Assembly: GCA_947467185.1 (NCBI GenBank)
Contig: CANIHR010000013.1
Coordinates: 1 to 37,537, forward strand
DNA: 37,537 nucleotides
From: Bryobacterales bacterium
Lineage (GTDB): Bacteria; Acidobacteriota; Terriglobia; Bryobacterales; Bryobacteraceae
Direction: 5' to 3'
Each line of letters begins with the position of its first letter. Within the stretch, counting starts at the first letter, position 1. The notes under the pieces are model-generated. The model ran no database searches. It was given only the letters and a program-made list of their open reading frames with translations, and was not told where the DNA came from. The position numbers were made by a program, and so were the translations under genes. Of this stretch, positions 18,090-19,817 are shown piece after piece.

Positions 18090-18116
18090 TGCCAGACCGG
18101 GCAGGCCGGTCTGGCA
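18090..18116. repeat. Perfect 11-bp inverted repeat between ribBA and rpmE
   Basis: TGCCAGACCGG and its complement CCGGTCTGGCA flank a five-base loop. It lies just beyond the stop of rpmE (minus strand) and could end that transcript, but there is no T-run on either side. The form resembles REP-type palindromes; no second copy was noticed in this window. Confidence 0.5.
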
Positions 18117-18140
18117 CCAGAGGTTAGAAACGGAGCTTAA

Positions 18141-18377
18141 TTAAGCGCCGGCGAGACGGCTGGCTTTCTCAGCGCGCTGACTGGCGTACTTCTTCTCAAA
18201 GCGGTCGACTCGGCCCGCGGTGTCAATCAGCTTCTGCTTGCCGGTAAAGAACGGGTGGCAGTTGGAGCAAATTTCGACACGGATGTCGCCTTTGTGGGTG
18301 GAACGAGTCTTAAACACGTTTGTGCAGGCACAAATCACGTTTACCTCGTTGTATGCAGGGTGAATTCCAGCTTTCAT
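18141..18377 (-). CDS. rpmE: 50S ribosomal protein L31 (bL31), zinc-binding form
   Basis: 78 residues. It carries the four zinc cysteines of the C+ form (Cys16, Cys18, Cys37, Cys40) in CACTN and [13 protein letters not shown], then the conserved [13 protein letters not shown]. The start ATG at 18377 has a GAGGAT ribosome site directly upstream; an upstream in-frame GTG-type extension is not family-like. About 260 bases of structured leader with its own promoter precede it. Zinc-containing L31 is expected to serve under zinc-replete conditions. Confidence 0.95.
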
Positions 18378-18407
18378 TAGATCCTCGCGAAAATCCATCT
18401 TAACACA

Positions 18408-18449
18408 CGAAAGCCCCCGGGACACCGTTTGGGGTGCCCGGAGGCTTCG
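18408..18449. terminator. GC-rich hairpin upstream of rpmE, possible attenuator/terminator
   Basis: A stem of about 17 pairs with small defects (CGAAGCC-TCCGGGCACC against GGTG-CCCGGGGGCTTTCG arms). On the plus strand it is followed by TTTTACTT, and on the minus strand by GTGTTAAG. It therefore looks more like a plus-strand terminator, but no plus-strand gene leads into it; for the minus strand it would sit between leader and rpmE as an attenuator. Confidence 0.5.
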
Positions 18450-18564
18450 TTTTACTTCTCACTGCCTGAGACAGCTACTTCATCTATAAGTACGAAGCGA
18501 CCGGTCCACAGGAACCAGATCCCGCTCACTGAGAGCGGTGATCATCAGCTTTAGAACGGTCGAC

Positions 18565-18606
18565 TCAACAGTCGGCCACCTCGTACGGTCTACTTCCTGA
18601 TTTCAT
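18565..18606 (-). CDS. Short leader reading frame (13 codons), candidate
   Basis: ATG at 18606 lies 12 bases after AAGGAGG and the frame reads MKSGSRPYEVADC before TGA. The +1 frame crossing this stop continues open for about 28 more codons to 18480. It may be a regulatory leader peptide, or the strong ribosome site may simply recruit ribosomes for control. Its codon third positions are less GC-rich than in neighbouring genes, so protein coding is uncertain. Confidence 0.25.
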   Translation of the reverse strand: MKSGSRPYEVADC

Positions 18607-18641
18607 TCTTTTGGACCACCTCCTTCTTCAGTGATAACTAC

Positions 18642-18670
18642 AACTTACGCCCGGTCCGGCGAGTTGTCAA
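18642..18670 (-). promoter_or_regulatory. Sigma-70-type promoter of the rpmE leader
   Basis: On the minus strand a perfect -35 TTGACA (18670-18665) is followed after 17 bases by TAAGTT (18647-18642). This is the best -35/-10 pair in the window and suits a ribosomal-protein or stable RNA promoter. Transcription should begin near 18635. Confidence 0.6.
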
Positions 18671-18743
18671 TGGCAAAGAAAAAGGGGCGGAATCTGGCCT
18701 GTCCGGGGCGTCCTGGGGCAAATCGGACGACCCGTCTGAAACC

Positions 18744-18790
18744 AAATACAAAGGCCGGGCGTTGCAGCGAAACCGCTGCAGACCCGGCCT
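18744..18790 (-). terminator. Intrinsic terminator of the cytochrome c556-like gene
   Basis: A long hairpin with arms AGGCCGGGTCTGCAGCG and CGCTGCAACGCCCGGCCT (one central mismatch region) and a short loop, followed on the minus strand by TTTGTATTT. It lies 29 bases after the stop of the cytochrome gene. Confidence 0.75.
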
Positions 18791-18818
18791 GAAAAAACGA
18801 ACCCAAATGGGCTAAAGC

Positions 18819-19208
18819 TTATTTGAAGTCGCTGCCGTTGCGGTAGTTGGTATGGCAACCGCGGCAGGTGCCACCGAGCTTGGCGAGAGCGGCCTGCTGG
18901 CCAGCTTCGTCAGCCGTGGCGACAGCCTTGGCGGCGTCGCGGGCATCTTCCGACATCTTCTGGGCGTCAGCCTTACCCTTACCCGCCCAATACTTGGCGA
19001 TGGAATCGAAGGCATCGGCAGCCTTGGCCGAATTCTCCTTAATGGCAGCCGCGTCCTTGGCGGTGACTGCGGCGCGGAGGGCACCATTGGCACCGGCACC
19101 GGCCTTCATCCAGGTCTGGTACTGAGCAAGATCCGCATTCTGGGCAACGAGCCCGGCGGCGCAAAGAGCGAAAACAGAAAATAGAATAGAAACTCGACGC
19201 ATGGGCAT
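18819..19208 (-). CDS. Cytochrome c556/c'-like protein, exported
   Basis: 129 residues. A Sec signal (VSILFSVFALCAAGLVAQ) is followed by an Ala/Lys-rich four-helix-like body and a single haem site CRGCH at about 115-119, close to the C terminus. C-terminal haem on a helical bundle is the hallmark of class II cytochromes c (c', c556). The ATG at 19208 is favoured by a GAGG site six bases upstream; a second ATG lies at 19202. The gene stands alone with its own terminator. Role: periplasmic electron transfer or gas binding, unknown. Confidence 0.8.
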   Translation of the reverse strand: MPMRRVSILFSVFALCAAGLVAQNADLAQYQTWMKAGAGANGALRAAVTAKDAAAIKENSAKAADAFDSIAKYWAGKGKADAQKMSEDARDAAKAVATADEAGQQAALAKLGGTCRGCHTNYRNGSDFK

Positions 19209-19302: not shown

Positions 19303-19308
19303 TACAAT
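19303..19308 (+). promoter_or_regulatory. -10 box, SET-domain gene
   Basis: TACAAT (5 of 6 consensus positions) ends 8 bases before the GTG at 19317 and overlaps an alternative TTG start at 19308. If used, the message would be leaderless or nearly so and the GTG would be the start. Confidence 0.4.
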
Positions 19309-19316
19309 TGCGGAAA

Positions 19317-19817
19317 GTGCCCAAGCGTCCAAAGACTACAGCCGCAGAGACTCCGAAGACGGCGGCTCCGGAAGCTCCGGAACCTCGCATCAACCCGAAA
19401 TACGCCTGTTTCAAGCTGGAAATCCGCTCTTCAACCATCCATCGCTGGGGAATCTATGCCGGCGAGGACATCCCGAAGCGGCGGAAGGTAATCGAATACA
19501 CCGGCGAACGAATCTCCCGGCGGGAGACAAAGCGGCGGGCAGAGGCGAACCCCGGCCTCATATATCTGTTCACCCTGGACAAGTACTGGACGCTGGACGG
19601 GTCAGTCGGCGGCAGCGGCGCAGAGTTTATCAACCACTGCTGCGACCCGAATATCGTGACCGAGATCCGCTCGGGCCACATCCTGTATTTCAGTGACCGG
19701 GATATTAAGAAGGGCGAAGAGCTGACGGTGGACTACCACTTCTCGAAGGACGTGGAGCGGATTCCCTGCAAGTGCGGCGTGACGAAATGCCGTGGCACCA
19801 TTAACCTTCTTTCGTAG
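19317..19817 (+). CDS. SET-domain protein-lysine methyltransferase-like protein
   Basis: 166 residues from GTG. The first 25 residues are Lys/Pro/Ala-rich and basic, like a nucleic-acid-binding tail. A complete small SET domain follows: RWGIYAGEDI (AdoMet loop), EFINHCCDPN (the NHSC-x-PN knot motif), EELTVDYHF with the catalytic-site Tyr, and post-SET cysteines CKCGVTKC (C-x-C-x4-C), which with the knot cysteine would bind a zinc ion. The family transfers methyl groups from AdoMet to lysine. The bacterial target is unknown. Its end overlaps the convergent enolase-like gene by 17 bases. Confidence 0.85.
   Translation: MPKRPKTTAAETPKTAAPEAPEPRINPKYACFKLEIRSSTIHRWGIYAGEDIPKRRKVIEYTGERISRRETKRRAEANPGLIYLFTLDKYWTLDGSVGGSGAEFINHCCDPNIVTEIRSGHILYFSDRDIKKGEELTVDYHFSKDVERIPCKCGVTKCRGTINLLS

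Follow-up and report, generated by a model that had tools for sequence, protein, structure and literature searches.

The window (the whole 37,537-nt stretch of Bryobacterales DNA analysed here) carries on its minus strand a standalone small RNA gene, and we are confident that this RNA is a divergent Bryobacterales form of a family that is represented in Actinobacteria by Rfam RF02471 (Ms_IGR-5). The RNA has its own promoter, a maximal Shine-Dalgarno sequence (SD), a conserved 13-codon open reading frame (ORF) and covarying helices, and the end of the ORF is at the same time one strand of the main helix. Overall, the locus is probably best explained as a standalone, promoter-driven, translated, structured small RNA related to Ms_IGR-5. 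As far as our searches go, it is new that the family extends to Acidobacteriota, that Bryobacterales have a rewired form and that the mini-ORF is conserved; the revised helices are likewise new.

The small RNA gene and its promoter

Read along the minus strand, the locus consists of the promoter, UAUCACUGAAGAAGGAGGUGGUCC, the 13-codon ORF, the hairpin regions and a GC-rich hairpin that extends to about 18407, with rpmE following from 18377 (Table 1). We infer the 5' end of the RNA to lie a few bases past the -10 element and its 3' end to lie at the terminator-like hairpin. The segment 18637-18390 folds far better than its shuffled versions (z -5.15, 0/200), and the consensus SD, the hairpins and the GC-rich 3' hairpin described in the first-pass annotation are all present. 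A promoter of the form TTGnnn/TAnnnT is found at the matching distance from the RNA 5' end in 141 of 159 family members, where shuffles give 1.4, and in 34 of the 40 Bryobacterales. The window promoter had been called near-perfect; both elements and their spacing are as described, but the wording is too strong for a -10 that agrees with the consensus at three of six bases, which is also why a sigma-70 promoter scan lists none at the window RNA. A terminator scan likewise lists none at the 3' hairpin on the minus strand (18407..18450); the U-run after this hairpin is interrupted in the source genome, and a cleaner T run is present in some relatives (e.g. locus L013). Just upstream of the RNA gene, 18819-19208 on the minus strand encodes a cytochrome c'-like protein (Pfam Cytochrom_C_2) that has a CxxCH close to the C-terminus; a terminator-like site (18813-18800) comes next, and then a second GC-rich hairpin at about 18789-18753. 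A SET-domain protein (Pfam SET, E=3.2e-22) is encoded on the opposite strand at 19308-19817 (plus).

Table 1. Features of the RNA gene in the window, and helices of the form found outside Bryobacterales
Feature	Position	Strand	Details
Promoter	18642..18670	minus	TTGACA 18670-18665, 17-nt spacer, TAAGTT 18647-18642; from sequence, layout kept in family
Small RNA, ~230 nt	18407..18637	minus	Fold z-score, homologues
5' strand UCACUGA	18628..18634	minus	Proposed partner P3 loop UCAGUGA (18532-18526); 271/5000 swaps, weak
13-nt extended SD AAGGAGGUGGUCC	18613..18625	minus	Complementary to 16S 3' tail GGAUCACCUCCUU, one G-U
Short ORF ATG...TGA	18565..18606	minus	13 codons, MKSGSRPYEVADC then stop
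P1b 5' strand GUACGAGGUGGCCG	18573..18586	minus	Inside ORF; 14 bp with 18503-18490
GAG GUG (Glu-Val)	18577..18582	minus	Internal SD-like element, 6 nt before last sense codon
P2 hairpin CGACU-GUUG-AGUCG	18561..18574	minus	Stop codon at loop; 5/5000 swaps, 4/5000 in 37 non-redundant
P3 hairpin, loop UCAGUGA	18518..18543	minus	1/5000 swaps
C element (P1b 3' strand) CGGUCGCUUCGUAC	18490..18503	minus	Pairing with ORF end
GC-rich 3' hairpin, terminator-like	18407..18450	minus	From sequence
Extended -10 TGTTAAGAT	18397..18405	minus	Likely promoter of rpmE itself; 16/18 scored rpmE-linked loci
rpmE (ribosomal protein L31)	18141..18377	minus	Downstream neighbour, outside the RNA; Pfam Ribosomal_L31, E=3.9e-33
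P0, non-Bryobacterales form			5' CRCN pairs with N'GYG before AGGUG
P1, non-Bryobacterales form			GGUGNNNNNN pairs with 3' strand such as GGCAGUCACC
P2, non-Bryobacterales form			Stop region, long-range

A maximal Shine-Dalgarno sequence and a conserved mini-ORF

The 16S 3' end to which the SD is complementary was read in two of 26 genomes searched, both of the same order, the source genome giving no match. All 30 fetched loci, that of the window included, have the extended SD followed by an ORF of 12-19 codons with its stop at the corresponding place; the lengths differ by whole codons, and all three stop codons are used (in L006 the distance was taken from an upstream SD-like match, and the same ORF was read). 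The earlier statement that the region holds no normal gene had therefore overlooked an ORF (18606-18565) whose counterpart is open in every one of these loci. Variants of the SD, compared by eye, mostly keep the pairing with the 16S tail, with G or A opposite U and C or U opposite G, and the pairing is broken at the SD 3' end in a few loci (L037, L038). In locus L009 a hairpin-like insertion of about 40 nt lies directly after the stop codon, inside P2, with the ORF intact.

A pattern scan of named genomes for the SD plus GYGAGGTG returned at least 120 stretches. In 115 of these 120 loci GAG GTG is followed by exactly three codons and then a stop, where about 5% (about 3 in 64) would be expected by chance, and all 115 have an in-frame ATG, GTG or TTG between SD and GAG. 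The invariance of GAGGTG itself in these loci (L054-L173) is selected, being part of the search pattern, which is not so for the loci found by BLASTN or by the covariance model R1 (see below). The five that failed the ORF test are L057, L069 and L115 (titled Donghicola, Roseovarius), L091 and L171; L057, L069 and L115 share the SD plus GTATTGGAGCGAGGTG in a different frame and perhaps represent a conserved gene start of another kind. Across the wider family the ORFs start with ATG, TTG or GTG, stop with TAG, TGA or TAA and have 9-19 codons. The ORF finder was positive in 163/173 loci (159 after duplicate removal), which is not an unbiased rate since it required V (or EG) four codons from the end. 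The window RNA shows the same arrangement, an extended SD and then an ORF ending GAG GUG NNN NNN NNN stop. Apart from Glu-Val, which finder and pattern both favour, the peptide end is variable (A/V/T, A/V/D/E, R/S/C/T), and this variability favours the act of translation over the peptide as what is conserved. An unusually strong SD and a frame kept open across several phyla suggest that the presence of ribosomes on the RNA is part of its function.

Helices of the Bryobacterales form

Helices were tested by swapping partners between species, a test that ignores kinship, in loci sorted by hand (for some, from sequence alone) into 40 Bryobacterales and 119 others. In Bryobacterales the outer part of P1b is strongly supported (0/5000 swaps) and its core more weakly (148/5000), and, as in the wider family, the end of the ORF forms one strand, the 5' one, of the main helix. 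By eye, the 3' strand of P1b (the C element) cannot be aligned with that of P1 in other phyla. P3 (1/5000) and the P2 hairpin around the stop (5/5000) covary as well. P0 (810/2000 swaps) and the long-range P2 (1631/2000), the helices of the other form, are unsupported in Bryobacterales.

The 5' end of the Bryobacterales form probably pairs instead with the P3 loop, replacing P0. Both segments are mostly invariant, with co-changed CACUGG/CCAGUG in L017 and L021 and ACUGG/CCAGU in L155. L015 lacks the P3 hairpin and has an altered 5' CAC motif, and in L003 UCAGUG is lost from the P3 loop and the 5' segment is duplicated; the joint losses fit a contact between the 5' end and the P3 loop.

Three further pairings were considered and set aside. 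The first, between the SD and the C element, is unsupported by swaps (3405/5000; 2073/5000 non-redundant) though energy folding favours it: in the minimum-energy fold of the window RNA the SD pairs with the GGACC side of the C element, at -60.5 kcal/mol versus -55.1 kcal/mol with P1b, so that the SD may be hidden in the free fold. The swap test is limited in this case because an SD pinned by the 16S tail cannot covary. A pairing of the ORF with a GGCUACC element is unsupported in Bryobacterales (886/5000), and a 7-bp antiterminator pairing in the window is absent by eye from L002 and L003. When sequences were folded freely, at least eight P1 or P1b pairs formed in 14 of the 19 tried, and in 7/8 of the actinobacterial ones. 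RNAalifold on a MAFFT alignment returned only 11 pairs, two with a compensatory change, in our opinion because MAFFT shifts the hairpins.

Helices outside Bryobacterales

In the 119 loci outside Bryobacterales, P0, P1 and P2 each gave 0/2000 partner swaps. Matched changes in P1 include GGUGUCCGUC/GACGGACACC, GGUGGUUGUC/GGCAACCACC and GGUGGCCAUC/GGUGGUCACC. With L121 and L129 dropped, all ten P1 pairs are present in 67/117 sequences against 29.5 expected with swapped partners; the contrast is small for nine or more pairs (100 of 117 against 93.0 expected). For P0, 88.2% of cells in alignment A2 are paired, compared with 78.0% in shuffles (0/500), and the covariation score is 0.294 compared with 0.135 (0/500); two of the five measures, both-side changed pairs (468/500) and further pair types (38/500), are not outstanding. 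Slid versions of P0 pair less. The Rfam structure line for RF02471 pairs the SD with the codons after Glu-Val, a helix that is complete in 71/117 and that competes with the covarying long-range helix for the same bases.

Relationship to Ms_IGR-5

At gathering thresholds the window has no match to any Rfam family, and the region has no meaningful one at E<=5; to this extent the earlier remark that the RNA belongs to no recognised family holds. RF02471 gave no match at E<=5 in 18100-18900, with the window RNA below the 45-bit gathering score; its best matches in the source genome (15.4 and 11.7 bits) lie elsewhere than the window RNA, which also went undetected in an RF02471 scan of 247 Acidobacteriota genomes. 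That scan gave matches in 14 genomes at E<=0.01, two of them above the cut-off (50.3 and 50.6 bits). Among 17 acidobacterial loci compared with RF02471, seven match at E<=1 with top scores of 44.8 and 43.3 bits against the cut-off of 45, and the four Bryobacterales in this set have no match at E<=1; none of 14 acidobacterial loci in a separate Rfam scan reached a gathering score. Of the pattern-found loci, 13 were scanned, and eight of them (seven from Actinobacteria, one from Zixibacteria) scored above the RF02471 cut-off; L129 (actinobacterial, with the RNA at the stretch edge), L100, L109, L073 and L074 did not.

Two covariance models of our own connect these sequences to the window; both lean on the SD and GAGGTG, and their E-values are rough. 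R1, built from 28 of the 30 fetched loci (L009 and L015 left out), matches 23/297 genomes of the phylum at E<=0.01. Three of its places, L048, L052 and L045 (the last resembling a fragment of a ribosomal protein gene), were judged false by eye, and the others have the same SD and ORF; the genome of L052 (G064) is also an R2 match at E=4.6e-7. For R2 we used 39 5' modules from outside Bryobacterales, and its sole match in the window up to E=1 is 18635-18562 on the minus strand (31.9 bits, a rough E=4.2e-10). At E<=0.001 R2 matches 50 of the 61 own and related genomes, the 11 absences possibly being gaps in partly fragmented genomes, and it matches all 33 listed genomes of family f8, five of which are training sources. 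Across the phylum, 131/297 genomes match at E<=0.01 (70 with E<=1e-6), a count that includes training places (the matches in the 15 training genomes of the phylum are by construction) and at least one place, in L052/G064, that looks false. The RF02471 place coincides with an R2 match in 13 of the 14 Acidobacteriota genomes, five of the 13 being R2 training places that R1 had found earlier. Because R2 and RF02471 share places in other Acidobacteriota, we take the window RNA to be a remote, rewired relative of Ms_IGR-5.

Among 80 listed titles from the pattern scan, 62 are Actinomycetota (names sorted by hand), six are Acidobacteriota and 12 are others; four of these 12 fail the ORF test, and the rest are titled Nitrospirae (two), Deltaproteobacteria (two), Zixibacteria, Rokubacteria, Sumerlaeota and an unassigned bacterium. 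These titles and the RF02471 matches in eight of 13 scanned pattern loci contradict the suggestion that the element is specific to Acidobacteriota.

Downstream genes

BLASTN of the region against 61 genomes (the source and 60 related) gave 46 matching genomes at E<=1 and 29 at E<=1e-3. Two strong copies and one weak match occur in genome G019, and two copies in G006 (L208, L017, G019:C228), against a single one in most relatives with a match. Downstream of the RNA lies rpmE in 22 of the 30 fetched loci (18 by motif; L005, L013, L019 and L027 by inspection), starting 165-281 nt past the ORF stop in the 18 motif-scored loci. Elsewhere tsaD follows (L018 and L021 by Pfam, L028 by eye), an Rrf2-type gene comes next (L033), thiG lies downstream (L047) or the neighbouring ORF is convergent (L050). 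The protein piece downstream in L016 has no Pfam match, L014 and L022 have no L31 frame downstream, rpmE is only 1.2 kb away in L025, and the contig ends in L023. An extended -10 (TGnTAnnnT) stands between the RNA 3' hairpin and the rpmE start in 16 of 18 scored loci, where 0.9 would be expected. Since rpmE is absent downstream in part of the loci and has a -10 of its own, the RNA is a separate gene and not simply the rpmE 5' UTR. Of the two possibilities that the first-pass annotation had left side by side, the conserved promoter, the changing downstream genes and the separate rpmE -10 thus support a separate small RNA and argue against an acidobacterial-specific L31 leader. In L018 and L028 the tsaD start, about 10-20 bases past the hairpin and with no visible promoter, is so close that read-through is likely there, and the RNA transcript may feed tsaD.

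A proposed ribosome-operated fold and its alternatives

The overlap between ORF and main helix leads us to a tentative model, for which we would claim somewhat less than an even chance, in which translation of the mini-ORF by a ribosome controls whether the fold is open or closed. The SD would recruit a 30S subunit by pairing with the whole single-stranded 16S tail, and the ribosome would then translate 13 codons and end at a stop codon within structured RNA. In its second half the ORF also supplies the main helix with its 5' strand, both in P1b of the present form and in P1 of the other, so that the helix could not close while a ribosome occupied the ORF, and a single bound ribosome would decide which state the RNA is in. 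The SD-like GAGGUG sits three codons ahead of the stop, at a start-like spacing from the last sense codon, and may hold the terminating ribosome in place. The purpose of such a switch could be that of a trans-acting, ribosome-responsive regulator or of a 30S sink. Carried further, the RNAs might form a housekeeping-like class of translated, ribosome-operated switches in which a second SD-like element holds the ribosome at a helix-buried stop and the fold reports translation capacity, a generalisation that we regard as doubtful. We are equally hesitant to extend such a class over Acidobacteriota, Actinomycetota and the few genomes titled Nitrospirae, Deltaproteobacteria, Zixibacteria, Rokubacteria and Sumerlaeota.

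Many described small RNAs act as trans antisense regulators, and the present one might do the same, with the conserved, unpaired AAUCCC by the P1 3' strand as the seed and the ORF as a second function or a means of keeping ribosomes on the RNA. The varying downstream genes are consistent with this, as is the motif AAUnC, which 72 of 100 scored loci outside Bryobacterales have no more than 12 nt from the P1 3' strand, but AAUCCC is not evident by eye in the Bryobacterales form, and the fixed ORF end and maximal SD would be left unexplained; we consider this reading unlikely. A purer role as a ribosome sink or parking RNA, whose product would be the bound 30S or 70S particle and whose effect would be lowered initiation on other mRNAs with an SD, accounts for the mostly maintained 16S-tail pairing and for the internal GAGGUG at fixed spacing to the stop. 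It appears distinctly unlikely, given that very high abundance would be needed, that covarying helices would be an elaborate means to this end and that a few SDs (L037, L038) break the pairing.

That the RNA is an mRNA for a functional micropeptide is improbable: the open frame with its in-frame length changes would fit, but the C-terminal residues besides Glu-Val vary widely and sit in helices, the N-terminus is variable, and L030 loses Val (RREGAGS) yet keeps a 10-bp P1b. Least of all do we expect the RNA to act in cis, as an attenuator or an L31 leader of the gene that follows it, a very improbable reading that draws on the frequent proximity of rpmE, on tsaD in L018 and L028 and on the poor U-run in the window, and that was rejected as the main reading because downstream genes change, rpmE has a separate -10, and the RNA is multi-helix and without an Rfam match rather than a single hairpin of a known motif, as the L31 leaders described in the available text of PMC7247131 are.

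Discussion

Our preferred reading, the standalone translated RNA related to Ms_IGR-5, can be set against several known systems. SgrS is a dual-function small RNA with a short internal ORF; unlike RNAs of this type, the window RNA has the overlap of ORF end and main helix together with a maximal SD. tmRNA likewise has a short frame with its stop in a hairpin; the window RNA differs in having an SD and a start codon, and no Rfam family, tmRNA included, matches the window. The yfr6/Downstream-peptide motif of cyanobacteria resembles it as an RNA of about 250 nt with a short conserved ORF, but the conserved structure there, according to the available part of PMC2864571, is a 5' UTR before the ORF, whereas here the ORF end is a strand of the main helix. 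With L31 leaders the window RNA shares its position upstream of rpmE in its genus; the accessible text of PMC7247131 gives five L31 motifs, all single hairpins before rpmE and each confined to one phylum, whereas the window RNA is multi-helix, has its own gene and also occurs without rpmE.

Ms_IGR-5 is the closest parallel. Both forms have their own promoter, a 5' CAC-type strand, AAGGAGGUGGUCC, an ORF ending Glu-Val-x-x-x-stop, helices around the stop and a GC-rich 3' hairpin. The window form differs in being undetected by RF02471, in carrying P3 and the C element, in its 5' end, which probably pairs with the P3 loop and not with the GYG before AGGUG, and in the absence by eye of the AAUCCC/GGCAGUCACC end. 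For the actinobacterial members, significant ribosomal reads on MS_IGR-5 homologues of M. abscessus and M. smegmatis are reported in the available text of PMC4974804, with the caution that footprints are seen on many ncRNAs that are not clearly translated. Sources available in part further describe a small-RNA transcription unit of the Ms_IGR-5 family in S. avermitilis (PMC8780764), list the family as validated by RNA-seq in S. lividans (PMC8079986) and note that IGR-5 overlaps ncMSMEG15794c (PMC10454040). The Rfam title of RF02471 is simply Actinobacteria sRNA, and in the open-access literature we found no function for it and no paper describing its ORF.

To our knowledge, few small RNAs beyond tmRNA, SRP RNA, RNase P and 6S RNA span phyla. 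The RNA described here is found in Acidobacteriota and, judging from record titles, in a few further phyla; its mini-ORF is conserved and its SD maximal, and the model offers a concrete, testable proposal for an orphan RNA of Streptomyces, M. smegmatis and other laboratory organisms. If true, it would be a rare case in which evolution has preserved the act of translation, and not a peptide or an antisense seed.
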